Shown here: in pieces, positions 19,958 through 39,130 of the stretch
Numbering within the stretch: the stretch's first letter is position 1
Layout of the letters: every line of letters starts with the position of its first letter
Translations under genes and position numbers: made by a program
Source of the DNA: Oceanihabitans sp. 2_MG-2023
GTDB taxonomy: Bacteria; Bacteroidota; Bacteroidia; Flavobacteriales; Flavobacteriaceae
Direction: 5' to 3'
Assembly: GCF_030547245.1 (NCBI RefSeq)
Contig: NZ_JAUOQT010000012.1
Location: 1-39,130, forward strand
Length of the DNA: 39,130 nucleotides
Notes under the pieces: model-generated
Told to the model about the DNA's origin: nothing
What the model saw: the letters and a program-made list of their open reading frames with translations, nothing else
Databases searched by the model: none

Positions 19958-19996
19958 TAGTAATTAGTAATACTTTTGTTTAAACTTAAAACAAAA

Positions 19997-20027
19997 AAAT
20001 CTCGTAAGCAGAACACTTACGAGATTT
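19997..20027 (-). terminator. Terminator of the one-module T9SS gene (between convergent genes)
   Basis: A perfect 12-bp stem AAATCTCGTAAG / CTTACGAGATTT with a 7-base loop. On the minus strand a run of T follows (from the A run at 19993-19999), so it mainly ends the minus-strand gene. It may also limit read-through from the hybrid kinase gene. Confidence 0.85.
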
Positions 20028-20055
20028 CAATAACTAAATTAAACGAAACTATAGA

Positions 20056-20859
20056 TTACTGTTTAATGAAACGTTTGGTGGTAACACCTCCGTTTTCATC
20101 TTTAATTCTTATTAAATATACACCATTTAACAAACGACTTACATCTATACTTTTGTTTGAAGTGCTTAGCACTTCCTTTCCTAATACCGAATAAATAGTT
20201 ACTGCTTTTAAGTTACTATTTATTTTAATATGCAAATCTGAAGTTGTAGGATTTGGGTATATAGAAATTGTATTTAAACCAAAATCATTTACACTTAATA
20301 TCGTAGGACAATCTTCATCAAAACTAGCATTGGCTGGAATACCCCAATTGGAGTTAGGCGTAAAACCTGCATCTATTTGCACACAAGTTACAGCGCTACT
20401 TACTACATTAAAACGAGTGACATTGCTGTTGTTTCCGTTTGCCATATTTATGGCTGTAAGTGCAGTTGTATGTGCTTTAAAATCTACCAAATCCGGAAGC
20501 ATACTTAAATCTAAAATACCGGAAATACCTGTTTGCTCTAAAAGTAATTGTGTAAGTTTTGTGTTTTGAGAAACATCCACACTAGTAAGCGTTGCATTCC
20601 CAAAAGCCTGTAAACCTATAATTTCTGTAAAAGCTTCCATTCCTGTTAAATCTTGAATGTTTGCATTTGCAACATTAATACTTCCTGTATAAGCACTTGC
20701 TTCACTAACTTGAATTTCGGAATCGCTATTTGTATTAATATTTGTGTTAGCAATTAATATGGCTTTAAAGCTTGCGTCTGGAATAGTTACATTCTGTGCA
20801 TTTGTTGCTAAACCTATTGTTATAAAGGTAAAAATGGAAAGTAATCTTGTTTTCATCAT
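20056..20859 (-). CDS. T9SS type A secreted protein with one leucine-rich module
   Basis: A 267-residue protein with signal peptide (MKTRLLSIFTFITIGLATNA). A second Met directly follows the first, so initiation could be one codon later. It has one copy of the IPDASFKAILIANTNINTNS module, degenerate leucine repeats (LTSVDVSQNTKLTQLLLEQ), the cap VTCVQIDAGFTPNS, and a type A sorting domain (IYPNPTTSDLHIKIN, IYSVLGKEVL, LLNGVYLIRIKD). It is a shortened paralogue of the 971-residue protein. The promoter carries the 33-bp LytTR-like element, and its 3' hairpin is nearly the same as that after the other T9SS genes. Confidence 0.9.
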   Translation of the reverse strand: MMKTRLLSIFTFITIGLATNAQNVTIPDASFKAILIANTNINTNSDSEIQVSEASAYTGSINVANANIQDLTGMEAFTEIIGLQAFGNATLTSVDVSQNTKLTQLLLEQTGISGILDLSMLPDLVDFKAHTTALTAINMANGNNSNVTRFNVVSSAVTCVQIDAGFTPNSNWGIPANASFDEDCPTILSVNDFGLNTISIYPNPTTSDLHIKINSNLKAVTIYSVLGKEVLSTSNKSIDVSRLLNGVYLIRIKDENGGVTTKRFIKQ

Positions 20860-20881
20860 TATGTTTTTATTGATTATGGCA

Positions 20882-20947
20882 CAAAACTACTCCCAAAGTG
20901 CATTTAAAAATCTTGCCAATTTCTGAAACTTGCCTTTCAACTTCTAA
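20882..20947 (-). promoter_or_regulatory. LytTR-like promoter element plus -7 box, one-module T9SS gene
   Basis: Minus strand: TTAGAAGTTGAAA, a 6-bp spacer, then TTTCAGAAATTGGC at 20915-20947, then exactly 25 bp to TAGTTTTG at 20882-20889, 22 bp before the start codon. Half-sites AGAAGTTGAA and AGAAATTGGC are 21 bp apart, a spacing usual for LytTR regulators. Confidence 0.75.
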
Positions 20948-20952
20948 ACAAA

Positions 20953-20984
20953 AAATCCCGTAAGATTTAACACTTACGAGATTT
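20953..20984 (-). terminator. Terminator of the LamG/beta-helix T9SS gene
   Basis: On the minus strand AAATCTCGTAAG pairs with CTTACGGGATTT over 12 positions (one G-U), followed by TTTTTT. It lies about 25 bp after the stop and only a few bases before the regulatory element of the next gene. Confidence 0.85.
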
Positions 20985-21007
20985 AAAACAATAATTAAAA
21001 CTACAAA

Positions 21008-23581: not shown

Positions 23582-23606
23582 AATATATAGTTTATAGTTT
23601 ATGAAT

Positions 23607-23672
23607 CAAAACTACTTGTAAAGTCTATCTAAAAATAAAGCCAATTTCTGAAATGCTAGTTTCAACTTCTAA
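23607..23672 (-). promoter_or_regulatory. LytTR-like promoter element plus -7 box, LamG/beta-helix T9SS gene
   Basis: Minus strand: TTAGAAGTTGAAA, a 6-bp spacer, then TTTCAGAAATTGGC at 23640-23672, then exactly 25 bp to TAGTTTTG at 23607-23614, 25 bp before the start. Outside the spacers the element is identical to that at 20915-20947. Confidence 0.75.
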
Positions 23673-23684
23673 AACAAAAAAACC

Positions 23685-23716
23685 TGTAATAAAGACACTT
23701 AATGACTATTATTACA
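23685..23716 (-). terminator. Possible weak terminator after the propeller kinase gene
   Basis: An AT-rich 8-bp stem TGTAATAA / TTATTACA with a 16-base loop lies between the kinase stop and the promoter of the next gene. On the minus strand a short T-rich stretch follows it. The low GC content makes it uncertain. Confidence 0.35.
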
Positions 23717-23775
23717 ATCATTTTACACGATTTTATAAGTCTTATAAAATAAATGTTTCTATTTTTATTCCACTA

Positions 23776-26703
23776 TTACTGTTCCGTAAACGGAATAATA
23801 ACCTCTACTTGCGTACCTATTGGATGTTCATTATCAAACAAATCCATAATCGTTACACCTACCTGTTTTTCTTTTCCGTAGTTTAATAATGCTAAACGGT
23901 CTTGTGTTGCCTTTATAGCAAAAGGTGCATGTTTTTTCCCACCGTGAGCTTTAATTTTATTGGCTTGCTCTCGCCCAACTCCATTATCTATAATAATACA
24001 CTTTATCGTTTTATCTTCTAAGTAGATATGGAAATTAATTTCTAGTTTCCGATCTGTTTTTCGGTGTAACAATCCATGTTTTAAAGCATTTTCTACATAA
24101 GGTTGAATTAACATGGTAGGAATATATACGCTATCCGATTTTAAATCTCCAGTGGAGCTAATATTATAATTTAATTTATCTTCAAAACGTAGTTTCTCTA
24201 ATTCTAAATACATTTCTAAACAATTAATCTCTTCTTGTAATGTGATTTTTCCTTTTGTACTATGACTTAAATAAGTTCGTATTAAATCGGCAAATTTCCC
24301 TAAATACTCACTTGCTAATCTACTTTTATTTAAAACAATATAATCTTGAATAGAATTAAGTGCATTAAAAATAAAATGCGGATTCATTTGTGAACGTAAG
24401 TTTTCTAGTTTTAAAGCTATTAATTCGTTATCTAATGAAAGTTGTTTAATTTCTATTTGTTTGGATTTTTCTTTGTTTTTCAATTTCCTTTTAAAGTAAA
24501 AAACAATGAATCCTATAATAGACAAACTATAGAGTAAAATAAACCACCATTTTTTCCAAAAGGGTAATTTAATATGTAGTTTAATACTTTCGATTCCATT
24601 TTCACTAGCTGCATCACTATTGGTTGGCCGTACTTGAAAGGTATATTTTCCAGCAGGCAAACTACTATATTTCATGGCATTCACACCAATATCGGTGGTA
24701 ATCCAATCGGCATTATAGCCTAATAAACGGTATTGATACGTTTTATTACTATTGTATAGAATACCATTCACATTAAACTCAAATTGTATGGAATTCTGAT
24801 TGTAATCTAAATTGTAATCGGTTCCAATATCTACCGATTTTTCATTAATTTTTATATCATTAAAATAGATTTCTGGACAAGAAGTGGTTTTAAAAACTTT
24901 ATCTTTATCAAAAGAAAATATACCGTTATTGGAAGACAAAACCACTTGGTTTTTTAAAATTTCAATACCCGATATTTTATAAGACAGTATCCCATCTGTT
25001 TTTGTCAGATTTTTAAAGGTCTTCAAATCGGTATTAAACATTTGCAAACCCTTTGGTGTTGCTATCCAAAGCGCATTTCCATCTCCTTTTAAAAATGTAA
25101 TTTGATTAGACAGTAACCCTTTTTCAGTAGAATACCGTGCAATAACTTGATTATCTCTTATAGCAAAAATTCCATTTTTAAACGTACCAACCCAAACGAT
25201 ACCATTTGCAGTTTCGGAAATAGAAATAGCAGAAATTTCTTTGCCTTCATATTGTATTGTGGTTGCGTTATATGCATCGTCTAATACTAACAAATCATCT
25301 ACAAAGCCAATAAAAGCAGTATTATTTTTAGGGCTGTAGTGTGTCGTATACACACGCTTATCATTAGAGAACTCCTTGATTACCCCAGAATGTTCATTTA
25401 AAAAAACCAACCGTACATACGTTCCATAGAGTGTGGTATACGCATTTAAACGAGAAAAACTTTTTACTCCTTTAAAGTGACCTTTTCTTGTTGCTTCTAA
25501 AGTGTTATTATCTACAAAATAAGTCCCATCATCTGTACTTACATAACTATATTTTTGTTTTGGATTATATTGTATTGCAGATACTTTATTATTTAAAAAA
25601 TGGGAGAACTTATACTCCGAGTTATTTAAATTAAGAAAACCTACCTGTCCTACTTTAGTCCCAAAAAACACTACAGAATCATTGACTTTATTAATAGCCA
25701 TGACATCGTTACTTTTTTCGGGCAACGCATATTTCACCACTGCTATGTTAGGTATTAAATAAATACCATTTGTGAGTGTTGTTACCCAATACGTATGGTC
25801 TTTATCTATAATTACATCGGTAACCACTTCCTCTTTTAAAATTTGCCTTTTTAATTGAAATTCCTTTAGATTCTTTTCATAAATAAAGATTCCCTTATTT
25901 GTCAAAACCCATAAATCATTTTGAATTACTTTGATTGAAATAATTCTTAGATCTTTTAAAAGCGCTAATCCTTTCACTAACTCCGTTGTGCCTGACGCTA
26001 AATTTGATCTTCTAAATGTATTTTGAAACTTAAATTGCTGCGACAAGAACAAGGTGCTGTCTAGTTTAAAAACAAGTGTTTTTCCTTGAGCGGTACTGGC
26101 CCCTTTATCATCTTTATAGTTAACATTAAGCAAAAACTTACGTTTCTCTTTTAAGTCTTCATCTAATATTACTATTGCTTTAAAATCAATTAAAACATAG
26201 AAGTCTTCTAATGGTATCAGTCTAACCCCTCCTTCTTTATTTATTTGTTTTAGAAGAATTCGCTTCGTAGTTAAATCTACAACATGTAAAGTTCTACCTG
26301 TAGTAATTAAAACCTTGTTATTATGTACTATATAATTTGCAAGTTGTCCTTTTAAATCCTCTTTTAAATCTAAAAAAGTGACCAATTTATTATTTTCAAC
26401 ATAAAAAAACTGACCAGAAATATTGGTACACCAAACACGCCCTTGTGGATCTTCTGTAAGTTGAAAAACGGACAGACCTCGTTTTTCTGCATTGGTATAC
26501 TGCGTATAATTTTTACCGTCATAACGATACAAACCACTATCGCAGGCCAGCCAAATAAAACCTTTACTATCTTCTAAAATGCTATAAAATTCAACATCAG
26601 GTAAACCATCTTTTTCTGTAAGATGAATAGACACTGGTTCTTGTGCATGCAGTAAATAGAAGCACAATAGAAATAGCATTAAAAGTAGGTTTTTACTCAA
26701 CAT
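23776..26703 (-). CDS. LytS-type sensor histidine kinase with two-component-regulator propeller and Y_Y_Y domain
   Basis: A 975-residue protein. It has a signal peptide (ending LLHAQ) and a long periplasmic beta-propeller built from repeats such as GLPDVEFYSILEDSKGFIWL and GLLSNQITFLKGDGNALWIA (about 20-630). A Y_Y_Y domain follows (YQYRLLGYNADWITT, YSSLPAGKYTFQVRP), then one transmembrane helix (WWFILLYSLSIIGFIVFYF). The cytoplasmic His_kinase domain carries the phospho-acceptor in MNPHFIFNALNSIQ, and the HATPase carries LIQPYVENALKHGLLH and IIIDNGVGR. Kinases of this class partner with LytTR regulators. It lies 98 bp downstream of such a regulator gene and is probably the second sensor for it. 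The signal sensed by the propeller is unknown. Confidence 0.92.
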   Translation of the reverse strand: MLSKNLLLMLFLLCFYLLHAQEPVSIHLTEKDGLPDVEFYSILEDSKGFIWLACDSGLYRYDGKNYTQYTNAEKRGLSVFQLTEDPQGRVWCTNISGQFFYVENNKLVTFLDLKEDLKGQLANYIVHNNKVLITTGRTLHVVDLTTKRILLKQINKEGGVRLIPLEDFYVLIDFKAIVILDEDLKEKRKFLLNVNYKDDKGASTAQGKTLVFKLDSTLFLSQQFKFQNTFRRSNLASGTTELVKGLALLKDLRIISIKVIQNDLWVLTNKGIFIYEKNLKEFQLKRQILKEEVVTDVIIDKDHTYWVTTLTNGIYLIPNIAVVKYALPEKSNDVMAINKVNDSVVFFGTKVGQVGFLNLNNSEYKFSHFLNNKVSAIQYNPKQKYSYVSTDDGTYFVDNNTLEATRKGHFKGVKSFSRLNAYTTLYGTYVRLVFLNEHSGVIKEFSNDKRVYTTHYSPKNNTAFIGFVDDLLVLDDAYNATTIQYEGKEISAISISETANGIVWVGTFKNGIFAIRDNQVIARYSTEKGLLSNQITFLKGDGNALWIATPKGLQMFNTDLKTFKNLTKTDGILSYKISGIEILKNQVVLSSNNGIFSFDKDKVFKTTSCPEIYFNDIKINEKSVDIGTDYNLDYNQNSIQFEFNVNGILYNSNKTYQYRLLGYNADWITTDIGVNAMKYSSLPAGKYTFQVRPTNSDAASENGIESIKLHIKLPFWKKWWFILLYSLSIIGFIVFYFKRKLKNKEKSKQIEIKQLSLDNELIALKLENLRSQMNPHFIFNALNSIQDYIVLNKSRLASEYLGKFADLIRTYLSHSTKGKITLQEEINCLEMYLELEKLRFEDKLNYNISSTGDLKSDSVYIPTMLIQPYVENALKHGLLHRKTDRKLEINFHIYLEDKTIKCIIIDNGVGREQANKIKAHGGKKHAPFAIKATQDRLALLNYGKEKQVGVTIMDLFDNEHPIGTQVEVIIPFTEQ

Positions 26704-26717
26704 CTAGGAATTGTAGA

Positions 26718-26725
26718 TAAAACTA
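26718..26725 (-). promoter_or_regulatory. Possible -7 box of the propeller kinase gene
   Basis: TAGTTTTA on the minus strand differs by one base from the octamer used by the T9SS genes and lies 14 bp upstream of the start. No 33-bp element precedes it. Read-through from the LytTR gene is the alternative. Confidence 0.3.
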
Positions 26726-26801
26726 CAATAAAATATACTTTAATGTATCTATATAACTCAAAAAAAATCTAATTTAAGATCTTTATTTATGGTGAAAAAG
26801 T

Positions 26802-27554
26802 TTACCCTATATTCTGAACGATTGTCAAGAATTCTTCTTTTTTATCATTTGAAATGGATACGGTTTTATCATTTTCCATAATAATATACCCACCATCTTT
26901 TTTAATATATTCTTTGATATAGGAAAGGTTTATAAGGTGAGAACGGTGCGGTCTATAAAATATCTTTATCTCGTGAAGAATATTTACAAAGAATTTTAAT
27001 GGTTTGCTTACCAAAATACTACCATGGGTCACGGTAGAAACATTAGTATACATACCATCTGCTTCTAGCATAATAATATCTGTAAAATCTACAAATTTAA
27101 TTCCATCAGCGTTTGGCAATCCTATTTTTTTAAAATTAGAATCTTCCAAACTTGCTTTCAATTCTGTTAGGCGTTTATTGATTTGTGTATTTCCTAAAAA
27201 AGCAATTGCTTTATCTACTGCAGCCTTTACTTGACTTGGCCTTACGGGTTTTAACAAATAATCTATTGCCGAAAGCTGAAAGGCTTGTATCGCATATTCA
27301 CTATACGCTGTTGTGAAAATGATTTCGAAATTATGTACTTCCTTTTCAATAAAATTTAGAATCTCAAGACCAGAATGTTCTGGCATTTCTATATCTAAAA
27401 AAACAATACTTGGCTGTTCTTTTTTTATAAGTGCTACACCGGAAAGCAAATCTTCTGCTTCAAAAATCTCTGTGATTTTCGGGCAGTTTTCTTCTACTAA
27501 AATATGTAGAACTTGTCTTGCTTTTTTCTCGTCGTCAATTATAAGTGCCTTCAT
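26802..27554 (-). CDS. LytTR family response regulator
   Basis: A 250-residue cytoplasmic regulator. The receiver covers residues 1-120 with acidic pocket ALIIDDEKKAR, phosphorylation site Asp54 in VFLDIEMPEHSG, FTTAYSEYAIQAF and Lys in DYLLKPVRPSQ. From about 150 to 250 is a LytTR DNA-binding domain (IIMLEADGMYTNVSTV, FYRPHRSHLINLSYIKEYIK). The start lies 3 bp after the stop of the TPR kinase gene, so the two are translationally close and cognate. LytTR proteins bind pairs of about 9-bp direct repeats one or two helical turns apart. Four promoters in this window, one of them that of its own operon, carry such pairs. Confidence 0.95.
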   Translation of the reverse strand: MKALIIDDEKKARQVLHILVEENCPKITEIFEAEDLLSGVALIKKEQPSIVFLDIEMPEHSGLEILNFIEKEVHNFEIIFTTAYSEYAIQAFQLSAIDYLLKPVRPSQVKAAVDKAIAFLGNTQINKRLTELKASLEDSNFKKIGLPNADGIKFVDFTDIIMLEADGMYTNVSTVTHGSILVSKPLKFFVNILHEIKIFYRPHRSHLINLSYIKEYIKKDGGYIIMENDKTVSISNDKKEEFLTIVQNIG

Positions 27555-27557
27555 CTG

Positions 27558-29546
27558 CTATAATTTATTTTTTAGAATTGGAATGTTTAATACTACTTTT
27601 GTCCCTATTGCTTTGCCTCCTTCTATGAGATCCATAATTTCTACACCAATCTTTTTTTCGCGACCGTAGTTTAACAAATCTAAACGTTCTGTGGTTGCCT
27701 TTAATGCGAAAGATTTATGCTGTGCTTCTCGTTTTTTATTAATTTCTTTAGATTTCTCTCTACCTATTCCATTATCTTTTATAATACACTCTATACTTTT
27801 ATTGGTAGGTTTTCCTATGGAAACATTTAACTTTCTATTATCTTTTTTATGCAGTAAACCGTGCTTTAAAGCATTTTCTACATACGGTTGAATAAGCATG
27901 GTTGGAATTTTAATCATATCAGAATTTGCAGCTTCATCAACATGAAAAGTATATTCTAATTGTTCTTCGAAACGTAATTTTTCAAGCTCTAAATAGAGAT
28001 TTAAATTATGTACTTCGTCTGGAATAGAAATAAAACCTGTATCACTAAAGTGAAGGTAATTACGAATTAAATCTGCAAATTTCCCTAAATAATCACTTGC
28101 TAGATTTTTTTTATTCAACACAATATAGTCTTGAATAGAATTTAGAGCATTAAATATAAAATGCGGATTCATCTGTGCTTTTAAAGCCTTTAATTCTGAA
28201 TCTCTGTATTGTTTTTCTATTGCTAATCGTTTTTGCGTTTCTTTTAGTTCTATAGTTACTAACTCTGCTTTCTTTTTTGCTCTCAACCTACTAAAGTAAA
28301 AAACAGAAGCTAGTAGTAACAAACCTGCAACAGTTAAAGAGCCTATAAATAAATTTCTGTTTTTTTGACTTTCTAATTTGGTAATTGCGACTTGTTGTTC
28401 GGCTACTTCTTTTTCTCTTCTAGTTTTTTCTGTATCGTATTTGATTTCAATATCACTTATTACTTTTTTCTTCTCTATCCCCAAAACACTATCTCTTACG
28501 ACAATTTCTTTTTCTAAGTAATACAAGGATTTTTTATAGTCTAATTTCTTTTCATATAGTTCTGAAAGGGCTCTGTAATTAACTTCTAGATTAGATAAAT
28601 TTGGATGTTTTGAAGCAGATAAAATTGCCTCTACTTCTTTTAATTGTTGTTCGGCTAAATTATAATCACCTAATAACATGGTATTATTTCCAATATTTTG
28701 TTTGGTAGTAAGAACTCTAGTTTGATCTCCCATTTGTTCAAAAATAGGAAGTGATTTTTTAAAATACTCATTGGTTTTCTTATAATCTTCTTTTTCAATA
28801 TAAATAGAACCTAAAACGGAATAAATCATTGCCTTTAAATAAGGTCTTTTTTCAATAGACTCTGCTTTTTTAGCATATTTTATTGCTTCTTCTGTTTCGT
28901 CTAATTGATATTTAACAGCTGCCATTTGCAAGCATACTTCCGACAAAAACACCTCATCTTCTTGTATTGTTGGATGGTTATAAAGAGATTCCATTACATC
29001 AAAAGATTTCACGTATTCTTCTATATTATAATATGTACCTGAAAGGTTATATTTGGTAATAAGATAATCCTTATCTCCTTCTCTTCCTTGTTCTTCATCC
29101 CTTTTTAATATTTCATGATACAGTTCTATCACTTTAGAAAATTCACCTTTAGACTCATAAGCACCAGCAATAGTTTCTTGAGAAATCCGTATTAGTCCAG
29201 GATTTTGTAATCTTTCTCCAATACTTAAAGCTTTTTTAGCATATATAAATGTAGAGTCTATATTACCTTGAATAGAATGATACAGTGCTTTTTCGTTAAT
29301 CCATTTACCTTCTTGACTCTCTTCTTTATCTTCAATACTTTTATTAAGAAGTTTGTTTAAAACATACCAATGAACATCAGAATCTCTATGACGGTAATAG
29401 TTGATAAACGCTATAGACTTTTTTCTTTTTAGGCTATCCGTTTCTATTTTAGATAATACTTGCTCTAAACTGTCAATAACTTTTTGTTGCGAAAAACTAT
29501 AATGGAAAAGAAATAGGATTAAAAATATTGGTAATATTTTTTTCAT
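27558..29546 (-). CDS. TPR-containing LytS-type sensor histidine kinase
   Basis: A 662-residue protein with a signal peptide (ending HYSFSQ). A periplasmic array of tetratricopeptide repeats follows (about 70-360, for example AIKYAKKAESIEKRPYLKAM, KTNEYFKKSLPIFEQMGDQT). After a short coiled segment comes one membrane helix (NLFIGSLTVAGLLLLASVFY). The His_kinase core has MNPHFIFNALNSIQ, and the HATPase has LIQPYVENALKHGLLH and IIKDNGIGR. The kinase core is strikingly similar to that of the propeller kinase downstream. It is first in a probable operon: TPR kinase, LytTR regulator, propeller kinase. Its promoter contains a degenerate copy of the shared 33-bp element, suggesting autoregulation. 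Confidence 0.93.
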   Translation of the reverse strand: MKKILPIFLILFLFHYSFSQQKVIDSLEQVLSKIETDSLKRKKSIAFINYYRHRDSDVHWYVLNKLLNKSIEDKEESQEGKWINEKALYHSIQGNIDSTFIYAKKALSIGERLQNPGLIRISQETIAGAYESKGEFSKVIELYHEILKRDEEQGREGDKDYLITKYNLSGTYYNIEEYVKSFDVMESLYNHPTIQEDEVFLSEVCLQMAAVKYQLDETEEAIKYAKKAESIEKRPYLKAMIYSVLGSIYIEKEDYKKTNEYFKKSLPIFEQMGDQTRVLTTKQNIGNNTMLLGDYNLAEQQLKEVEAILSASKHPNLSNLEVNYRALSELYEKKLDYKKSLYYLEKEIVVRDSVLGIEKKKVISDIEIKYDTEKTRREKEVAEQQVAITKLESQKNRNLFIGSLTVAGLLLLASVFYFSRLRAKKKAELVTIELKETQKRLAIEKQYRDSELKALKAQMNPHFIFNALNSIQDYIVLNKKNLASDYLGKFADLIRNYLHFSDTGFISIPDEVHNLNLYLELEKLRFEEQLEYTFHVDEAANSDMIKIPTMLIQPYVENALKHGLLHKKDNRKLNVSIGKPTNKSIECIIKDNGIGREKSKEINKKREAQHKSFALKATTERLDLLNYGREKKIGVEIMDLIEGGKAIGTKVVLNIPILKNKL

Positions 29547-31168: not shown

Positions 31169-32377
31169 ATGAAACCAAACCATTTATTTTGCATCACAAT
31201 CGCTATTTTACTTTGTTTTTCTTGCAAAAACAAGAAAACAAATGCTAATTCAGGATTTGACTTTCCGTTGGAAGATTATACACAAAACAATCAGCAACAA
31301 AGTAATAACATACAAAATACAAATTATACTAACAGTACAAATTGGCAACACAAAAGCCAGAAAATCAATAATAATCAACAACAAAAAAAAACCAATAAAA
31401 ACGGCTTAAAACCATATAAAATCATAAGTCCACAATTTGGAATCCTATTTGGGATTCTACCAATTCCAAAATCCTGGAATGAAAAAAGCAAAAACCAAGA
31501 GAATATATTGTTTGAAAATGCTAGTGGTGTAAAAGTATATGGCGAACAATATTTTTCATTTTCGCATCACAATGACCCACAAAGAAATCAATTCTCAAAA
31601 CAAAACGGAGCCAATGTGCAACCTCTAAAATCTTTAGATCGCGTTATAAACGAAGATTTTAAACCGTACTTTCAAAAGGAAGGTGCATCTTTTGTTAGAC
31701 AATACCCATTACCACATTTAGCACAAAAAGACAAACTAATGGATAGTTATATATTTAAAGCTACCCCAGAAAACAAACAATACCAATGTATGGTAACAGA
31801 ATGGAAAGATCAAAAAGGAAATCTATCTGTTGTCATTGTACGTTATTATGTTACACAATATCCACAAATTGGCGGAATGGGTTGGGGATATACAATCAAT
31901 GCATTAGAAGCTCCTAAAAAGGTCTACGAAAATGCAAAACAAAATCTTATTTACGCTTTAATTAATTTACAAATCAACCCGCAATGGGTAAAAACAAACA
32001 ACCAATACTATGCGCAAATGGCGCAGAAAAATAATACAGAACACCAAGCAAGAATGGCAGCTATTAAAGCAACTGGAAGAACAATTCGTCAAAACGCAAA
32101 AACATATAGTGATATGGCCGATAGCAGACATGAAAGTTGGAAAAAAAGAAATGCTATTTCTGATGCCGGACATGCCAATACTATAAATAGTATTTGGGAA
32201 CGTAGCACTATGACAAATACAACAGGAGACATTTACCAAGTTGAAGGATACAATAACAATGTTTGGAAAAATGCTAACGACACCTATCTTGGAACAGATG
32301 ATTATAATTATAATCCAAATATAGATAATACTGCAAACCATGAAAGCTGGGAACAGTTAGAACATGTAACCAATTAA
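31169..32377 (+). CDS. Lipoprotein of unknown function, Asn/Gln-rich linker
   Basis: A 402-residue protein with a lipoprotein signal (LLCFSC, lipidated Cys19). Residues 20-90 are a low-complexity Asn/Gln-rich tether (NNQQQSNNIQN). From about 90 there is a folded region (YKIISPQFGILFGILPIPKS, QYQCMVTEWKDQKGNLSVVI). A charged C-terminal part follows with YSDMADSRHESWKKRN, NTINSIWERSTMTNTTGDIY and QVEGYNNNVWKNANDTYLGT, which looks like a conserved domain but is not one I can name. It lies 89 bp upstream of the sigma factor gene on the same strand, so it may belong to that locus as a surface or periplasmic component. Confidence 0.75.
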   Translation: MKPNHLFCITIAILLCFSCKNKKTNANSGFDFPLEDYTQNNQQQSNNIQNTNYTNSTNWQHKSQKINNNQQQKKTNKNGLKPYKIISPQFGILFGILPIPKSWNEKSKNQENILFENASGVKVYGEQYFSFSHHNDPQRNQFSKQNGANVQPLKSLDRVINEDFKPYFQKEGASFVRQYPLPHLAQKDKLMDSYIFKATPENKQYQCMVTEWKDQKGNLSVVIVRYYVTQYPQIGGMGWGYTINALEAPKKVYENAKQNLIYALINLQINPQWVKTNNQYYAQMAQKNNTEHQARMAAIKATGRTIRQNAKTYSDMADSRHESWKKRNAISDAGHANTINSIWERSTMTNTTGDIYQVEGYNNNVWKNANDTYLGTDDYNYNPNIDNTANHESWEQLEHVTN

Positions 32378-32466: not shown

Positions 32467-33045
32467 ATGCAAAAAAGAAATACTAAAAATAATCATTCTG
32501 TAATTGAGTCTATTAAAAATAATGATTCCAATACGCTAAAGCAATTGTATCAATCCAACTACCCAAAAATTGAAGCTTATATTTTAAAAAACAATGGAAA
32601 TAAAGAACACGCCAAAGATATTTTTCAAGAAGCATTTTTAAGTGTTTGGAAAAACGTTAAAAACGATAAATTTGAATCGCAAAATGATTCCGCTATTCAT
32701 GGCTATCTCTACACCATTTCTAAAAACAAATGGTTAGATTATTTACGCTCTCAGCATCATAAAAAAACTGTTGTAGTCTCAAAAATCAATCATTTTGAAG
32801 CTGTAGACACAAATTTATATGAAAATGATGATGATATTTTAAAAGAAAAACGATTAGATAGTATAATGCATGCTTTTAAAGGTCTTGGTGGCTCGTGTAA
32901 AGCACTATTAAAGAAATTTTATTTTGAAAAGAAATCGATGATGATTATTGCTGAAGAATTACAATTAGACGCAGCATCTACTAGAAACAAAAAGTACAGA
33001 TGTATGCAAAAATTACGAACATTAGCTTCAGAAAATAACAAATAG
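32467..33045 (+). CDS. RNA polymerase ECF-type sigma factor (sigma-70 family)
   Basis: A 192-residue protein with only sigma regions 2 and 4. Region 2 is NYPKIEAYILKNNGNKEHAK plus DIFQEAFLSVWKNVKN and LYTISKNKWLDYLR. Region 4 is CKALLKKFYFEKKSMMIIAE plus ELQLDAASTRNKKYRCMQKL, a helix-turn-helix for the -35 element. The arrangement matches Bacteroidota ECF sigma factors. A stop codon and one base separate it from the TPR membrane protein gene, which makes that protein the natural anti-sigma candidate. Confidence 0.93.
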   Translation: MQKRNTKNNHSVIESIKNNDSNTLKQLYQSNYPKIEAYILKNNGNKEHAKDIFQEAFLSVWKNVKNDKFESQNDSAIHGYLYTISKNKWLDYLRSQHHKKTVVVSKINHFEAVDTNLYENDDDILKEKRLDSIMHAFKGLGGSCKALLKKFYFEKKSMMIIAEELQLDAASTRNKKYRCMQKLRTLASENNK

Positions 33046-33046
33046 C

Positions 33047-33787
33047 ATGAACCCAAATACAAACATCACAGAAAAAGAATTCGAAAACATAGAGCGTTAC
33101 TTAAGTGGTTCCATGTCACCTGAAGCGCGTAAAGCATTGGAATTAAAATTAAAAAACAACAGTGCGTTATTACATTATTTTAATGAACACAAAATAATGC
33201 AAGAAGCTATAGAAACACAAAGCTTGAAGGAACAATTAGATATTTACCATAGTGGTATCTCTGCAGATAAAACGCTTAAAAACAACCACATTAAAGTTAT
33301 TTCTTTTCCATTTAAAAAAATGATTGCAGCTGCAGTTTTAATTATAGCATTGGGAAGCTTTTGGTTTTTTAATTTGAGTTCTAATAATGAAAAATTATAT
33401 ACGCAATATTTTAAAGCAGATCCTGGTTTACCAACTACGATGGGAGAAACCAACAATTATGATTTTTATAATGCCATGGTTAACTACAAACAAGGTGACT
33501 ATACTTTAGCAATCTCTAAATGGGAAAAACTTCTAAATACTAAACCAAAAAACGACACATTAAATTATTTTATTGGCGTTGCTCATTTAGCAAATAAAAA
33601 TGAAAAGAAGGCTATTCTGTATTTAAGTAAAGTAACAAATAATACGCTTGGAAGCTTCACTAATGAAGCCTATTACTACTTAGGTTTAGCACATTTAAAA
33701 GCCGATAACATGGAACTTGCAAAAAAAAATCTTACCTTTAGTACTATTGATAATAGCAAAAAAATACTTTCTAAACTAAACAACTAA
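33047..33787 (+). CDS. Single-pass TPR membrane protein, probable anti-sigma factor
   Basis: A 246-residue protein. Residues 1-88 have the helical acidic pattern of Bacteroidota anti-sigma N-termini (IERYLSGSMSPEARKALELK followed by LKNNSALLHYFNEH), but no zinc-binding HxxxCxxC. A single transmembrane helix lies at about 91-110 (KMIAAAVLIIALGSFWFFNL). The periplasmic part, residues 120-246, holds about three TPRs (YNAMVNYKQGDYTLAISKWE, LNYFIGVAHLANKNEKKAIL, EAYYYLGLAHLKADNMELAK). It lies 1 bp after the sigma gene and 11 bp before the TPR-CHAT gene. The predicted role is to hold the sigma factor at the inner membrane and respond to the periplasmic TPR-CHAT protein. This role is inferred from position and topology, not proven. 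Confidence 0.8.
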   Translation: MNPNTNITEKEFENIERYLSGSMSPEARKALELKLKNNSALLHYFNEHKIMQEAIETQSLKEQLDIYHSGISADKTLKNNHIKVISFPFKKMIAAAVLIIALGSFWFFNLSSNNEKLYTQYFKADPGLPTTMGETNNYDFYNAMVNYKQGDYTLAISKWEKLLNTKPKNDTLNYFIGVAHLANKNEKKAILYLSKVTNNTLGSFTNEAYYYLGLAHLKADNMELAKKNLTFSTIDNSKKILSKLNN

Positions 33788-33798
33788 AACTTCACTTT

Positions 33799-36700
33799 AT
33801 GAAGAAGTTCACTTGCTATTGCTTTGCTGTGGTATTATTTCACATTACTACAGTGCCTACTTATGCGCAAAAGGATTCCATCTCTAAGATCGATAAACTA
33901 AGAAAACTAGTTGATCAAAAAAAAATAGCCAAAGCTAAGGCAGAACTCTATCATCAAATAGAGCAATTTAAAGCTGTAAAACAATACGATTCACTTATAA
34001 ACTATTATGAATTTATTGGCAGCTTTATTCTAGCAAATAATGATAAACAACTTGCGATTAAACGCTCTAAAGAATTTACTGAAGAATTACTAAAACAAAA
34101 TGACCCATATATTTCATATAAAGCACTTACTGGATTGTCAGTTACGTATTCAGATGCAGGAGATTACTCTAAAGCATATGAAACAGTAACAGAAGCAATC
34201 CCTTTTGTCGCACAATTGCAAGAGAATAGACCTAAAGAAAAAGCAGAATTAGAATATGATCTTGGTTATTATTCTCTTCAATTAAGCAATTATCCATTAT
34301 CTAAAAAACACTATTTAAAGAGCATAGAAGCACTTAAAAATGTAAAAAACATAGATTATGTAGCGTTACAAAGAACCTATAACAGCATAGGAATAGTATA
34401 CTGGACTGAAGCCAAAATGGATAGTACTAAATATTATATGAATAAATCTTTAAATGCACTTCATAACGCACCAAAAGGAGACGACTTCATGAACGAGTAT
34501 TATCGTCCAGCCCTATTACAAATCAATTTAGCCATAGTATCTCAAGCCATAGGTAAGAATAATGAAGCTATTAAATTTACAGAGAAAGCTATTTCCGATT
34601 TACAAAAATTCATAGATAATTCTATAGATGAACAACGTAAGTTGAGAGCTAAAAAAAGTAAACTCGCTGCTATTGATAATTTGGGCGTTTTTTATAATGA
34701 AATAGGTGAATTTAAAAGAGCTGAAGAACTTATAAACTACGCATTTAACATCAAGAAACAAGCATTTGGCGAGACAGATCCAAGTGTAAATATTTCAAAA
34801 ATAATACTTGCTCAAGCTAAAATAAACACCAAAGATCTAGAAAATGCAGCAATACTTTTAGACCAAGCAATTGCTACAATAGAAAAAAACAAAAAAGCAC
34901 AAACGTACTGGTTAGGTATAGCTTACATTTCTAGAGCTAGTGTTTATAAAGATTTAAAAGATTATACTAATGCAAGTTCTTATTACTTAAAAGGGGAACT
35001 TTTAAACAGAAAAGCTACTAACAATAACTTCTCTAAAGAAATGTTAGAAGAAATGGGAACCATGTCAGTTTTTCATGCAAAGCATGGAGATAAAACCAAG
35101 GCTTTGGCATTAGCAAAAGAAGCTTATACATTCACAAAAAAAGGAAGTTTTAAAAATACAGTTCGGGAATTTATTAGTACAACAAATCTAGCTAACACCT
35201 ATTACATTCTTAAAAATTACGAAGAAGCAAAAAAATACAGTACTGCAGCTCTAGAGTTCGGCTTCGAAAATCCTAACTCGAATAATGCCTCAGATTCTAT
35301 TTCAATACAATTTGAAAAACCTCGTGCAATATCCATAAACACACGCTCTAAGTATGCACTTTCTACAACGAAGGATGAAGCTTTCTTAAAGCATTTACTT
35401 CTTCAAATTGAAGAAGGAATAACCATACTAGACCAACGAAAAACAGTATTAAAATCACACAACGATATTACAACGCTAATGTCTCAAAATCAAGAGCTTT
35501 TTAATTTTGCAAAAAAAATAAGGTTAGAATTATTTGAAAAAACCAATAACAAACAATACCTAATGGATGTTATTAATCTTCATGAGTCTGGATTGTATAA
35601 TCGTATTCGTTCCCGACTTAACCTAAGAGAAGACCTCGCTTTTTCTGGAATTTCAAAAACTATTTTGGAGCGAGAGGAAAAATTAAAAAACAATATTGCT
35701 GCTACTTTACAAACGAACAAGAACTCAAGTATTAGTGATTTCTTTAAAGCCTCAAAATCTTGGAGTTTTTTTTTAGACAGCCTTAAACAAGACTATCCAA
35801 AATATTACAAAATGCGTTATGCGACCATAGAAACTCCGTTAAGCAATCTTCAAAATAATATTCCAGAACAAACTACAGTCGTTAGATATTTAAACATAGA
35901 TAAGAAGCTCTATGCTTTAATAGTAGATAAAACAACCTTTAATATAGTGAGATTAACCTCTAAAAACAATAGTAAACCTATTGCCTTTTTAGCTACAAAC
36001 AAACTTGATTTGGATAGGACTTCGGAATCACTTTACATCTTATATCAAAATTTATGGAAACCAATCGAAGATAAGATTCATAATAAAAACATAATAATAA
36101 TTCCGGATGGAGCACTTTTTAATCTAAGTTTTGAATCTTTAACCTCAAGTAAAGCAACTTCTTTTGAAACAATGGTAGAACATAGTTTATTATCTAAACA
36201 CAATATATCTTATAACTATAGTCTATTCTTATTAAAGGAAAACCAGAAAACAACAGATTATTCTAGCGATTTTATTGCCTTTGCACCAGAATTTAATGAT
36301 GAAATGAAGGACGATTATAGAATGACAATTACCGATTCTATGCATATGGACAAGGCATATTTAAAATTATTACCACAACCATTTAGCGCAGAATTGGTTA
36401 AAGAGCGTACAAAATTATTTAATGGCAAATCATTTTTAAACGAAAATGCTTCCAAACAAGTATTTGAAAATGAAGCCAAAGAACATAAAATCATACATAT
36501 AGGCACACATGCAGAATCTAATAATATATCTCCCGAACTCTCTAGGTTAGTCTTTGCTAAAGATGCTTCAGGTGAAGATAATTCACTATACACCTATGAA
36601 ATATACAATCAGAATTTATCCTCCAACCTGGCTGTATTAACAGCTTGCGAAACAGGTAAACCAACCTATCAATCTGGAGAAGGTATGATTTCATTAGCAC

Positions 36701-37026
36701 ATGCTTTTAATTACGCTGGAAGCGAAAGTATTTTAACTAGCCTATGGAAAATTGACGAACAATCTAGCATGAAAATTATTGATCTATTTTATAATAATAT
36801 TTCTGAAGGAACTCCAAAACATGAGGCATTAAGACTTGCGAAACTGGATTATATTAAAATGGCTAATGGTCGTGCAAAACACCCACAATATTGGGCAGGA
36901 TTAATTCTTATTGGAGATGCTAGCCCCATTGAAATTCAAACATCAAACCCTTTACGCTATCTATTATTAGGTGTTTTAGTACTTATACTACTTATTATTT
37001 TTATGAAACTTAGAAAGAAGGCATAA
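33799..37026 (+). CDS. Exported TPR-CHAT protease-like protein with C-terminal membrane anchor
   Basis: A 1075-residue protein. It has a Sec signal peptide (ending PTYAQ at about 24) and an array of TPRs from about 30 to 560 (YDLGYYSLQLSNYPLSKKHY, FYNEIGEFKRAEELINYAFN, LANTYYILKNYEEAKKYSTA). A helical linker follows, then a CHAT domain from about 700 to 1040. The caspase-like dyad is present: His904 in HIGTHAESN and Cys950 in LTACETGKPTYQSGEG, followed by FNYAGSESILTSLWKIDEQS and HPQYWAGLILIGD. The last 25 residues form a transmembrane helix and basic end (YLLLGVLVLILLIIFMKLRK). The TPR and CHAT parts are therefore predicted to be periplasmic and anchored in the inner membrane. CHAT proteins of this family are cysteine peptidases that cleave specific partners. 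The adjacent anti-sigma-like protein is the obvious candidate substrate. Confidence 0.9.
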   Translation: MKKFTCYCFAVVLFHITTVPTYAQKDSISKIDKLRKLVDQKKIAKAKAELYHQIEQFKAVKQYDSLINYYEFIGSFILANNDKQLAIKRSKEFTEELLKQNDPYISYKALTGLSVTYSDAGDYSKAYETVTEAIPFVAQLQENRPKEKAELEYDLGYYSLQLSNYPLSKKHYLKSIEALKNVKNIDYVALQRTYNSIGIVYWTEAKMDSTKYYMNKSLNALHNAPKGDDFMNEYYRPALLQINLAIVSQAIGKNNEAIKFTEKAISDLQKFIDNSIDEQRKLRAKKSKLAAIDNLGVFYNEIGEFKRAEELINYAFNIKKQAFGETDPSVNISKIILAQAKINTKDLENAAILLDQAIATIEKNKKAQTYWLGIAYISRASVYKDLKDYTNASSYYLKGELLNRKATNNNFSKEMLEEMGTMSVFHAKHGDKTKALALAKEAYTFTKKGSFKNTVREFISTTNLANTYYILKNYEEAKKYSTAALEFGFENPNSNNASDSISIQFEKPRAISINTRSKYALSTTKDEAFLKHLLLQIEEGITILDQRKTVLKSHNDITTLMSQNQELFNFAKKIRLELFEKTNNKQYLMDVINLHESGLYNRIRSRLNLREDLAFSGISKTILEREEKLKNNIAATLQTNKNSSISDFFKASKSWSFFLDSLKQDYPKYYKMRYATIETPLSNLQNNIPEQTTVVRYLNIDKKLYALIVDKTTFNIVRLTSKNNSKPIAFLATNKLDLDRTSESLYILYQNLWKPIEDKIHNKNIIIIPDGALFNLSFESLTSSKATSFETMVEHSLLSKHNISYNYSLFLLKENQKTTDYSSDFIAFAPEFNDEMKDDYRMTITDSMHMDKAYLKLLPQPFSAELVKERTKLFNGKSFLNENASKQVFENEAKEHKIIHIGTHAESNNISPELSRLVFAKDASGEDNSLYTYEIYNQNLSSNLAVLTACETGKPTYQSGEGMISLAHAFNYAGSESILTSLWKIDEQSSMKIIDLFYNNISEGTPKHEALRLAKLDYIKMANGRAKHPQYWAGLILIGDASPIEIQTSNPLRYLLLGVLVLILLIIFMKLRKKA

Positions 37027-37095: not shown

Positions 37096-39130
37096 TTATT
37101 GTTTAATCAATCGTTTTACAATCGAGCCATGTGTGCCATTAATTTTTATAAAATACATACCACTAGTATAATTTTCTAGTGAAATTTCTATATCTAATGC
37201 CTTTCCTTTTACATCTATGGTTTTAATAACACTCCCTCTTACATCGATTAACATGACATCGATAAGTTCTAAACGATTAGAGTTACGCAAGATTACTTTA
37301 TCTATAACTGGATTTGGAAATAGCTGAATATCATTTTCAGATAAAACATTGTCAGTGATACTTAGTGTAGTATCTTCTACTTTTACAAAAAAAGTACAGG
37401 TTTCTGTATTTCCGGAAGAATCTGTAATTAGATAACTAACATTATAATTACCGTCTTGTAAAATAGTACCAGGAACTGGTGTTTGCATTATGCTTGATAC
37501 TTCACAATTATCGGAAACAGCAACTACGTTATCTAAATAATAATCTGGTAACGTTAATGGTCCATCACTAACTTCAACCAATCCATTAGGACAAACTATA
37601 GTGGGTTTAATAATATCTTCTACAGTAACCGTCGCTGGTGCAGATTGGCTATTACCATTAGAATCTAAAACTGTTAAATTTACTGTATTTGCACCTAAAT
37701 TTGCGCAAGAAAAATTGGTGACATCAAGTACAAAACTTGAAATAGAACAATTATCTGAGGAACCATTATCTATTTCATCTTCTATAATCGAAGCGTTTCC
37801 TGTAGCATCCAATTGAACGGTTATATTTTGGGTTAACACTGTAGGACTTAAAGTATCTTCGACTATTACAATAGCGCTTGCATTACTCGTATTACCAGCT
37901 TCATCTGTTACAGATAAGCTTACGGTATTTGCACCTATATCTGCACATGTAAAATCACTACGATCTAATGCAAAAATTAAATTTGCAGAAATAGTACAGT
38001 TATCTGAAGAACCAGCGTCTATTTGAGACGACACTATAGAAACGTTACCCGTATTATCTAGTTGTACAGTAATATCTTGTGTTAGTACATCTGGAGGTAA
38101 AATATCTTCTTTATTAGAAATAGTTACTACCACATTTTTATCATCTGGATAAGTTATATCCATAGTATAATGCTTGCATCCAAAATCTGCATATATAGGT
38201 GTTGTAAAACTTTTAGTTGTAATTAATCCACTAACCGTAGCAACAGTAAAGGAATCACCTACATTAGCATCAAAACCCAATGTTACATTTAAATCTCCGT
38301 CAAAAACAACGTTTGTTCCAGTTATGTTTAATAAATCGTATTCTGTTCCTTGTATTAAACCGTCTAATTCAATATCTAACACAGAAGTTTCGGAAGACTT
38401 ATAATCTCCTTGTACACTTAACGTTCCTGGAGACAATCCTGGAGCAAATGTTCCATTATTTGTATAATTACCAACAGTTGGAACATCTAAAATACCAACA
38501 CCTTTAATCTTACCAGTAACTTCATTTGTAAACAACTGACTTCCTGTAAATTCAAGCTCTCCAGAAACTACTTCTATGGTACCAGAATTATTTAATTCGG
38601 TAGCAATTTGAACGATTCCCGTGGTAGTTGTTCTTTGTATTAAGCCAGCATTATTTACAACACCAGATGTTCCTGACCAACTAATATTCCCTGCATCTGC
38701 TTGCATATCAATAATTCCTTCTGTTGTATTGTTTAGCATACTTCCATTACCAACAATAAGTAAATCGCCATTATCAATAAATAAAAATGCACCTTGATTT
38801 TCGAGGGTTGTATCTCCAGAAACAAACTTATTTGAAGAACCGATAAGTTTCAAAACATTCCTATTTGTTAAAGTTCCTCCTCCGGACAAGGTTCCTGTTG
38901 TCCAATTAAAATTATCTGTTTCCGAAAAATTAAAAGCTGTATATGTTCCATCTACTACATTTACTATGCTATTCCAATTTAAATCACCATCGATAGTTCC
39001 TTCTAATGTTCCCGAAGGATTAATAGTAGTATCCCAATTCATACTTGCTCCTGCAAACACATTATAAGTACCATCTGTAAAATTTTTGCCTAATGTATTT
39101 TGAAAAGAAAGTGTACCCGATTCTACTTGA
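37096..39130 (-). CDS. T9SS type A secreted protein with Ig-like/HYR-type repeats, 5' end outside the window
   Basis: The frame stays open to the right edge of the window. A GTG at 39058 is not a convincing start because coding sequence continues upstream without signal peptide. At least 678 residues are visible. The N-terminal 320 residues are a beta-solenoid-like region (INPSGTLEGTIDGDLNWNSI, GNYTNNGTFAPGLSPGTLSV). From about 325 to 590 are two HYR-like Ig repeats (DNCTISANLIFALDRSDFTC, GANTVNLTVLDSNGNSQSAP) plus a diverged third (VSDNCEVSSIMQTPVPGTIL). The end is a type A sorting domain (LFPNPVIDKVILRNSNRLEL, YTSGMYFIKINGTHG, KRLIKQ). Similar tandem HYR repeats occur in SprB-like adhesins and large surface proteins of gliding flavobacteria. 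It converges on the TPR-CHAT gene. Confidence 0.9.
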   Translation of the reverse strand, partial: QVESGTLSFQNTLGKNFTDGTYNVFAGASMNWDTTINPSGTLEGTIDGDLNWNSIVNVVDGTYTAFNFSETDNFNWTTGTLSGGGTLTNRNVLKLIGSSNKFVSGDTTLENQGAFLFIDNGDLLIVGNGSMLNNTTEGIIDMQADAGNISWSGTSGVVNNAGLIQRTTTTGIVQIATELNNSGTIEVVSGELEFTGSQLFTNEVTGKIKGVGILDVPTVGNYTNNGTFAPGLSPGTLSVQGDYKSSETSVLDIELDGLIQGTEYDLLNITGTNVVFDGDLNVTLGFDANVGDSFTVATVSGLITTKSFTTPIYADFGCKHYTMDITYPDDKNVVVTISNKEDILPPDVLTQDITVQLDNTGNVSIVSSQIDAGSSDNCTISANLIFALDRSDFTCADIGANTVSLSVTDEAGNTSNASAIVIVEDTLSPTVLTQNITVQLDATGNASIIEDEIDNGSSDNCSISSFVLDVTNFSCANLGANTVNLTVLDSNGNSQSAPATVTVEDIIKPTIVCPNGLVEVSDGPLTLPDYYLDNVVAVSDNCEVSSIMQTPVPGTILQDGNYNVSYLITDSSGNTETCTFFVKVEDTTLSITDNVLSENDIQLFPNPVIDKVILRNSNRLELIDVMLIDVRGSVIKTIDVKGKALDIEISLENYTSGMYFIKINGTHGSIVKRLIKQ

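Follow-up and report, generated by a model that had tools for sequence, protein, structure and literature searches.

In the sigmaE-RseA pathway of Escherichia coli, the site-1 enzyme is a PDZ serine protease. In type III-E CRISPR systems, an ECF sigma factor is linked to a TPR-CHAT protease by a protein that, according to one report, binds the sigma factor and is cleaved (PMC10028731). The sites that a further report describes for Craspases (L|D, M|K and A|S) are non-conserved (PMC11106740). In Actinobacteria, ECF54 genes are described as lying near genes for CHAT proteins, subtilases and carboxypeptidases, and the same account proposes proteolytic control and places ECF54 among the sigma factors that are controlled without an anti-sigma factor (PMC8999054). 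We found no description in the open-licence papers searched of a Bacteroidota system made up of a sigma factor, a TPR anti-sigma factor and a CHAT protein.

Here we examined a stretch of 39,130 nucleotides from Oceanihabitans sp. 2_MG-2023 (hereafter the window). Three ORFs on the forward strand, with intergenic gaps of 1 and 11 bp, encode an ECF sigma factor, a TPR membrane protein and a TPR-CHAT protein (Table 1), in agreement with the near-contiguous order given by a first-pass annotation of this DNA. We consider it probable from sequence comparisons that the locus is a regulated-proteolysis module, in which CHAT would be the site-1 protease that frees the sigma factor. The likeness to Craspase (Csx29 TPR-CHAT, Csx30 and CASP-sigma) is one of logic only, namely a TPR-CHAT protein and an ECF sigma factor linked by an intermediary protein. 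The TPR membrane anti-sigma candidate occupies the place of Csx30, and, unlike in Craspase, the CHAT protein is predicted to be exported and membrane-tethered, the window has no CRISPR features, and the candidate cleavage site is conserved, whereas the Craspase sites are reported as non-conserved (PMC11106740). With sigmaE-RseA-DegS-RseP the locus shares a one-helix membrane anti-sigma factor, a predicted extramembrane site-1 cut and the presence of RseP (one match over the family cut-off in the organism's own genome), but the site-1 enzyme would here be a clan CD-like CHAT cysteine protease, and the periplasmic part of the anti-sigma candidate, unlike that of RseA, consists of TPR. In contrast to ECF54, the locus has a TPR membrane anti-sigma candidate, and it is found in Bacteroidota.

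Table 1. Features of the locus, with positions in the window.
Feature	Position	Strand	Evidence
Lipoprotein-like gene, 402 aa, class-A-specific partner; candidate sensor/regulator	31169..32377	+	Homologue distribution
ECF sigma factor, 192 aa	32467..33045	+	Pfam and NCBIfam matches
TPR transmembrane anti-sigma candidate, 246 aa; cytoplasmic 1-88, TM 92-108, periplasmic TPR part	33047..33787	+	TPR matches; topology inferred
Anti-sigma transmembrane segment, residues 92-108	33320..33370	+	Kyte-Doolittle mean 2.39 over 17 residues
Juxtamembrane motif DPGLPTTMG, anti-sigma residues 125-133; candidate cleavage site M132|G133	33419..33445	+	Conservation
TPR-CHAT protease candidate, 1075 aa; signal peptide, periplasmic TPR and CHAT, C-terminal membrane anchor	33799..37026	+	Pfam, hydrophobicity, alignment
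Leu866 codon of CHAT, putative S1-pocket position; acidic in Arg/Lys-type classes	36394..36396	+	Pair comparison and clan CD S1 rule (PMC4357240)
His904 codon, putative catalytic dyad of CHAT	36508..36510	+	31/31 aligned CHATs
Cys950 codon, putative catalytic dyad of CHAT	36646..36648	+	31/31 aligned CHATs
C-terminal transmembrane anchor of CHAT, about residues 1053-1070	36955..37008	+	Hydrophobicity

The sigma factor matched Pfam Sigma70_r2 (1.7e-12) and, over residues 24-185, NCBIfam sigma70-ECF (1.7e-20; 73 bits against a cut-off of 42.9), and it thus qualifies as an ECF factor with sigma2 and sigma4 and without sigma3, region 4 being covered by the NCBIfam match only. It falls outside the III-E sigma family, scoring 39.3 bits with NF041236 against a cut-off of 100. 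An element TTGTAT(A/C)TT was present close to the annotated start of the sigma gene in 33 of 63 loci of the class represented here (class A), often about 20-30 nt upstream. We set it aside as evidence of autoregulation, since it resembles what we take to be the primary-sigma consensus of Bacteroidota more than a clear ECF promoter.

Concerning the TPR membrane protein, its gene adjoins that of the sigma factor, and the protein has one transmembrane helix, which is its best hydrophobic segment, TPR matches that begin at about residue 132-141, and a presumably cytoplasmic N-terminal domain, a layout found in membrane-bound anti-sigma factors. The topology was deduced from the single hydrophobic segment and the basic residues preceding it. 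The first-pass annotation had called the N-terminus anti-sigma-like; the single helix was borne out, while sequence support for the N-terminus was weak (NF047528, E 1e-4, far under the model cut-off). Among 30 relatives, 11 weakly matched NF052375, 'anti-sigma factor'. An AlphaFold model of sigma fused to the anti-sigma candidate had a pLDDT of 87.5 and a pTM of 0.63, and comparison with the sigma factor in AlgU-MucA and sigmaE-RseA entries gave a target TM of only about 0.4, a value that does not establish an inhibitory complex. This model and the one other fusion model (below) were judged by their overall scores.

The CHAT domain (PF12770) spans residues 747-1040 of the third product (6.9e-42; 144 bits against a cut-off of 24), which also contains TPRs. 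Together with its putative His/Cys dyad, this identifies the product by sequence as a CHAT protease. The dyad had been described as intact, and we can confirm this: His904 and Cys950 were invariant in the 31 aligned CHATs, and in both groups of the 80 CHAT ORFs (>800 aa, >140 bits) used for column comparisons their conservation was 95% or more. As for the proposed signal peptide and C-terminal anchor, the anchor holds, with a strong hydrophobic segment within residues 1049-1074, and the N-terminal segment, followed by TYAQ, is borderline (Kyte-Doolittle mean 1.64). At a cut-off of 1.6, nearly all CHAT ORFs had a C-terminal hydrophobic segment (class A, 105 of 106; others, 68 of 71), whereas an N-terminal one was detected less often (class A, 81 of 106; others, 44 of 71). 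Some genomes appear twice in these counts, and some ORF starts are misplaced. In the model of the anti-sigma candidate fused to CHAT, pLDDT was about 35-53 around the active site, low values that carry no information on docking. When this model was used in Foldseek, TPR or repeat proteins made up most of the 50 matches listed, which also included several human separase entries (query TM 0.24-0.29). When PDB sequences were searched with the CHAT profile, the 60 matches listed of 100 were to TPR or helical-repeat proteins; a search with a class-B CHAT domain gave no match up to E 10.

Upstream of the sigma gene lies a gene for a 402-aa protein with a conserved Cys19 in a lipobox-like context, no Pfam match over cut-off and no NCBIfam match. 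Homologues were present in the examined DNA of 40 of 79 class-A loci from named genomes and at none of 72 loci with other CHAT classes. This gene belongs to the module, whose coordinates should start earlier, at the lipoprotein gene. The earlier reading of the DNA had overlooked this gene, as well as the juxtamembrane site and the sister classes.

We then consider how far the genes travel together. All three were within the examined DNA of 65 of the 79 named-genome class-A loci, a count in which the sigma/anti-sigma pair of L200, L204 and L217 belongs to a nearby second copy; linkage in Bacteroidota relatives is thus conserved. Of the 21 class-A loci first examined, 19 had the order sigma, anti-sigma, CHAT; of the other two, one lies at a contig edge and one has CHAT by itself. 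At one locus, L052, CHAT is broken. Among 397 genomes of the family, the anti-sigma candidate occurred in 45 of 47 with a class-A CHAT and in 6 of 350 without. In 149 genomes, 84 of 96 anti-sigma candidates (matches listed with at least 58 bits, weaker partial ones being left out) had a CHAT no more than 12 kb away, the genes being arranged in one of three layouts; the profile had been built from 30 CHAT-found anti-sigmas, and when these were removed, 55 of 66 were linked. A phylum-wide sample placed at least 26 of 68 anti-sigma candidates near a CHAT, and for families other than this one the figure was at least 10 of 35. Many genera have the operon, one set of relatives being the best 80 of 202. 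Chance adjacency is ruled out by this conserved association, in linkage (84/96) as in co-occurrence (45/47 against 6/350).

Just outside its membrane helix, the anti-sigma candidate carries DPGLPTTM(S/G). Met followed by Ser or Gly was kept in all 46 anti-sigmas from class-A CHAT genomes and in none of the six from genomes without one, and D.GL...M(S/G) was present in 65 of 65 anti-sigmas of named loci, whose species are partly shared with the set of 46. Over-long starts were trimmed before alignment in the anti-sigma ORFs of L041, L045 and L065, and in that of L165 for the motif-loss comparison only. The loss corresponds to three label changes, and thus three losses, on an anti-sigma tree whose bootstrap had not settled. 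The six proteins lacking a CHAT retained 26 of 48 conserved juxtamembrane residues, compared with 80 of 90 for the TPR part. The motif is intact in G027 and G254, where CHAT lies far from the sigma and anti-sigma genes, and thus cannot be put down to linkage alone. On the other hand, the loss could be the decay of any functional loop after death of the system, because the sigma gene was broken or not found beside that of the anti-sigma in G132, G049, G175 and G348, four of the six genomes without CHAT.

At the motif position where class A has Met, the sister classes carry Arg or Lys. Among CHAT/anti-sigma pairs drawn from 89 anti-sigmas, those without a qualifying CHAT being left out, position 866 of CHAT was L, V or I in 18 of 18 Met-type pairs and E or D in 57 of 59 Arg/Lys-type pairs, with P1 residues assigned by pattern (the Lys calls at L108, L109, L116 and L135 look wrong) and the column picked by scanning for acidic columns after the Met/Arg difference was known. 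Two pairs did not fit: L113, where Lys goes with Val, and L109, which was scored Lys and has Lys at 866. At L109, Gln and not Lys precedes the Gly, despite the pattern's score. In a later set of 14 loci, of which 11 belong to further families in the taxonomic class and one (L302) has an ambiguous P1 site, the two of Met type had L and A at 866 and the other 12 had E. The switch probably happened only once in evolution. Between class A and the remaining CHATs, 24 listed columns differ, and there are also columns in which class A alone is acidic. A His/Cys dyad is common to CHAT and to clan CD peptidases, both those with basic P1 (gingipain R, MALT1, metacaspase) and those with hydrophobic P1 (MARTX-CPD). 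An acidic residue on helix alpha1 has been linked with Arg specificity (RgpB Asp163, MALT1 Asp365, TbMCA2 Asp95), and in the same report family C80 is the only hydrophobic-P1 family of clan CD recorded up to 2015 (PMC4357240). Unlike the basic-P1 enzymes, class-A CHAT has Leu, Val or Ile at what is presumed to be the corresponding position, which would make it an enzyme of the hydrophobic-P1 kind.

Taking into account that the motif decays when CHAT is lost and that residue 866 matches the putative P1, we propose that CHAT cuts the anti-sigma candidate. The cytoplasmic N-terminus of the TPR membrane protein would hold the ECF sigma factor, and CHAT, exported and tethered by its C-terminus, would sit in the same membrane. 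CHAT would recognise DPGLPTTM(S/G) about 20 residues outside the helix and, judging from the evolutionary evidence, cut after Met132. By analogy with the known RseA pathway, the stub may next be cut inside the membrane by RseP, which would set the sigma factor free. CHAT is probably inactive until a periplasmic or envelope cue arrives, for which the large TPR region of CHAT and the upstream lipoprotein may be the route. CRISPR-free cleavage of this kind had been advanced in the first-pass annotation; linkage, motif decay and the match at 866 now speak strongly, if indirectly, for it, and the Craspase comparison contributes only a shared logic.

CHAT may instead be an effector and not the trigger, with sigma and anti-sigma sensing another input and driving CHAT, which would cut other envelope proteins such as the lipoprotein or damaged proteins. 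We regard this as unlikely. CHAT comes last in the class-A operon, its substrate is a candidate, and in 7 of 12 lone-CHAT loci the lipoprotein gene lies directly upstream of CHAT and thus accompanies CHAT, not sigma. In the convergent and divergent classes CHAT and the anti-sigma candidate are on opposite strands, so that CHAT is presumably on a separate transcript, like a regulated target. This explanation, however, leaves unaccounted for both the loss of the juxtamembrane motif with CHAT and the match of Met or Arg with residue 866.

Binding is a mode by which many TPR pairs work. The motif might correspondingly be an uncleaved docking site, bound by CHAT or its TPR region, with allosteric sigma release and the cut made by another site-1 protease, such as the S8 or aspartyl enzymes of sister classes, whose loci encode subtilases (11 loci) and retropepsin-like proteins (16 loci) beside CHAT. 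We find this quite improbable: the His/Cys pair of CHAT does not vary, its putative S1 residue changes in step with a single position of the motif, and in the window no protease gene other than CHAT adjoins sigma or CHAT.

Neither a gRAMP (Cas7-11) effector with CRISPR array, as in type III-E, nor any CRISPR-like repeat array was found in the window; its direct repeats consisted of one of 63 nt within an LRR gene and a single 20-nt pair, and 13 window proteins scanned had no Pfam match to Cas families. The longest listed ORF is CHAT itself, presumably shorter than Cas7-11. A Craspase-like role in defence or cell death, in which CHAT activation would lead to suicide or anti-phage transcription, has a precedent in the CHAT-sigma coupling reported for type III-E CRISPR (PMC10028731) and a score of 39 bits with the III-E sigma model, but is very improbable and was rejected on the PADLOC outcome, with no match to the anti-sigma candidate or the three CHATs scanned and one weak sigma match (E 0.0095), the proteins moreover appearing exported and the operon recurring widely.

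Returning to cleavage by CHAT, the evolutionary pattern suggests that a CHAT on the outer face of the inner membrane would cut the membrane inhibitor of the sigma factor in marine and related Bacteroidota. A broader proposal, which we hold to be evenly balanced, is a switch family across the taxonomic class, with several members per genome at most, in which a tethered periplasmic CHAT would be the dedicated site-1 protease, with class-specific Met or Arg/Lys selection set by residue 866 and a class-specific input module. At the present locus that module would be the 402-aa lipoprotein; one group would use subtilases instead, and another would combine a retropepsin-like protease with a 327-aa lipoprotein-like protein and a PKD/DUF7849 protein. 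Many orphan CHAT genes would thereby gain a predicted substrate, scissile bond and specificity residue, each directly testable. If the mechanism is true, transcriptional signalling outside CRISPR would be a widespread task of caspase-like proteases in Bacteroidota, and the sigma switch of Craspase would look like one example of a broader CHAT-to-sigma theme.

Open reading frames and family matches bore out the gene row described in the first-pass annotation, in which genes for an ECF sigma factor, a one-helix TPR membrane protein (the anti-sigma candidate) and a TPR-CHAT protein follow one another, separated by 1 and 11 bp. Topology was predicted from hydrophobic segments and the charges flanking them. 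The anti-sigma candidate has one such segment (residues 92-108) and the CHAT protein has segments at both ends, the N-terminal one being borderline by Kyte-Doolittle yet signal-peptide-like in shape and ending in AQ. The N-terminus of the anti-sigma would thus be cytoplasmic; its TPR part would be periplasmic, as would the entire TPR-CHAT body. The window, contig C4, belongs to a 3.69 Mb genome with three such systems: one on C4 and two on C12 (near 9 kb and at 472-480 kb). A fourth CHAT in this genome (locus L057, G000:C25:355000-374000; open frame of 1773 aa) has no TPR anti-sigma nearby; similar frames of 1789-2214 aa occur in genomes G013, G039, G063, G096 and G129.

Features of the window, with strand and basis
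Feature	Position	Strand	Basis
ECF sigma	32467-33045	+	sequence and family matches
One-helix TPR membrane protein (anti-sigma candidate)	33047-33787	+	sequence and family matches
TPR-CHAT protein, 1075 residues	33799-37026	+	sequence and family matches
Leucine-rich-repeat protein with type IX secretion tail; 63-nt (21-residue) repeat in 19 copies, the others 60-81% identical to the reference copy	14614-17529		
Dense signalling stretch: hybrid histidine kinase/response regulator/HTH_18 protein; Reg_prop/Y_Y_Y histidine kinase; TPR histidine kinase adjoining LytTR response regulator	17798-29546		
Further protein with type IX secretion sorting tail	21008-23581		
Further protein with type IX secretion sorting tail; gene tail to tail with the CHAT gene, running past the window end	37096-39130		

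The linkage that the first-pass annotation suggested looking for proved to be conserved. In 149 family genomes, a profile built from 30 anti-sigmas identified 96 relatives scoring at least 58 bits, and a PF12770 search gave 110 CHAT matches. A CHAT match lay within 12 kb of 84 of the 96 anti-sigmas (24 codirectional, 28 convergent, 32 divergent), or 55 of 66 when the profile-building proteins were excluded; 26 of the 110 CHAT matches had no such anti-sigma within 12 kb. Among 397 family genomes, window-type (class A) anti-sigmas were present in 51 and class-A CHATs in 47, with both in 45; the two genomes with CHAT alone represent a contig edge and a fragment, and six have the anti-sigma alone. 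Among named species the scan retained the 79 best distinct loci out of 202 relatives, and in 65 of these class-A loci the fetched DNA contained sigma, anti-sigma and CHAT; in three of the 65 (L200, L204 and L217) the sigma/anti-sigma pair is part of a neighbouring second copy. Of the other 14, two lie at contig ends and 12 have CHAT alone, 11 of these being named Aequorivita. Two other families of the same class also have class-A-type operons, with the sites DPGLPTTMS and DPGLAVVMS. In a phylum-wide sample the anti-sigma was present in 37 of 296 genomes; of its 68 matches, at least 26 have a listed CHAT within 12 kb, as do at least 10 of the 35 that come from other families.

Other arrangements were also observed. 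A second class-A CHAT lies directly downstream of the first at loci L049, L215, L218, L270 and L272. At L194 (G299:C3:98000-117000) two class-A systems face each other, each with its own lipoprotein homologue, and one has the variant site DVGLPLKMG; DIGLPLKMG occurs in four named loci. On G015:C326 (no TPR anti-sigma within 12 kb) and G407:C73, CHAT matches are paired tail to tail on opposite strands, 10-20 bp apart; these are possibly another kind of CHAT system.

Directly outside the membrane helix, the anti-sigmas share a DPGLPTTM(S/G) stretch. In the 45 genomes that have a class-A CHAT, all 46 class-A anti-sigmas carry Met followed by Ser/Gly. None of the six anti-sigmas whose genomes lack this CHAT does so: G121 has Met-Asn, G348 has Ile-Gly, and the motif is gone in the other four. 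D.GL...M(S/G), with some variation in between, was found in 65 of 65 anti-sigmas of named loci, whose species are partly those of the set of 46. On the tree the six require three label changes, most simply three losses, and two have CHAT-bearing relatives in the same genus (G132 versus G321; G348 versus G173). Taking the residues conserved in the CHAT-bearing set, the six retain 26 of 48 juxtamembrane cells but 80 of 90 TPR cells. The motif tracks the presence of CHAT and not its position, since it is intact in G027 and G254 although CHAT and the sigma/anti-sigma pair sit at different places. General decay of the system also contributes to motif loss, as no sigma was found adjoining the anti-sigma in G132, G049 and G175 and the sigma of G348 is broken.

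In sister CHAT classes the juxtamembrane stretch is usually [TVEI]-Arg-(Gly/Ser) or similar. We screened CHAT columns for those acidic in sister classes and not in class A. Residue 866 (numbering of the window's CHAT) stood out: all 21 class-A CHATs have L, V or I there, and 57 of the 59 others have E or D; column 605, outside the Pfam CHAT match, was weaker (acidic in 0 of 21 and about two thirds, respectively). With P1, the residue before the putative cut, called by pattern, all 18 Met loci had L, V or I at 866, and 57 of the 59 Arg/Lys loci had E or D. Fourteen later-fetched loci, of which 11 belong to other families of the class, agree: two Met-type loci have Ala and Leu, and the other twelve, including L302 with an ambiguous site, have Glu. 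The Met/Arg change was probably one event, and the pairing therefore counts as a single contrast retained across many lineages instead of a set of independent switches; 24 listed CHAT columns differ between class A and the rest. In a predicted model, 866 lies on a helix that follows the caspase-like sheet's first strand (local pLDDT about 51). According to PMC4357240, gingipain R, MALT1 and the metacaspase TbMCA2 have an acidic S1-site residue on helix alpha1, to which we infer 866 to be equivalent. Among the matches listed, PDB sequence searches gave no CHAT-domain relative through which residue 866 could be compared in Csx29.

Concerning known systems, the Craspase-like logic without CRISPR put forward in the first-pass annotation held in part. 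The proposed logic resembles that of type III-E Craspase (PMC10028731). The candidate site is conserved, whereas those cut by Craspases are non-conserved (PMC11106740). Given this, the lack of CRISPR features in the window, a sigma scoring below the III-E sigma cut-off and the predicted export of the proteins, the system is not a Craspase member. In the proposed mechanism it would resemble RseA-DegS-RseP, with a CHAT enzyme instead. For the actinobacterial ECF54 group, with CHAT and subtilase genes nearby, PMC8999054 reports a proposal of proteolytic control without an anti-sigma. In the open-licence literature searched, which does not extend to the main ECF classification paper, no description of a CHAT/TPR-anti-sigma pathway in Bacteroidota was found.

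In the proposed mechanism, the N-terminus of the TPR membrane protein would hold the sigma, as linkage and weak family matches suggest, and CHAT, judged by its sequence, would be anchored beside it in the periplasm. Motif-CHAT co-loss and the 866-P1 pairing point to a cut after Met132; RseP, present in this genome, may then remove the membrane stub and free the sigma by analogy with RseA. Neither of two predicted structure models (sigma/anti-sigma; anti-sigma/CHAT) confirmed an interface. The cue could conceivably arrive via the CHAT TPR region or a lipoprotein. A 402-aa lipoprotein-like gene lies about 90 bp upstream of sigma, with homologues in the fetched DNA of 40 of 79 named class-A loci, versus 0 of 72 of other classes, and directly upstream of CHAT in 7 of 12 lone-CHAT loci. 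Upstream of sigma, near its start, a TTGTAT(A/C)TT element was seen in 33 of 63 loci (L198-L276), frequently preceded by TTTG at a distance of about 18-20 nt; the annotated sigma start is probably misplaced in several of these loci. Among the sister classes, subtilases adjoin CHAT in 11 loci, with a lipobox-like Cys in both whose starts were inspected. The group of locus L137 has neighbours of 674 aa (PKD and DUF7849 matches in L137) and 327 aa (lipobox-like Cys in L137), each in 18 loci. In 16 loci the gene of a retropepsin-like aspartyl protease overlaps or abuts that of the class-C CHAT, and in nine of these the protease gene is followed within 500 bp by a homologue of a LuxR-type response regulator. 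As each CHAT class has its own neighbour genes, the core is constant and the presumed input varies.
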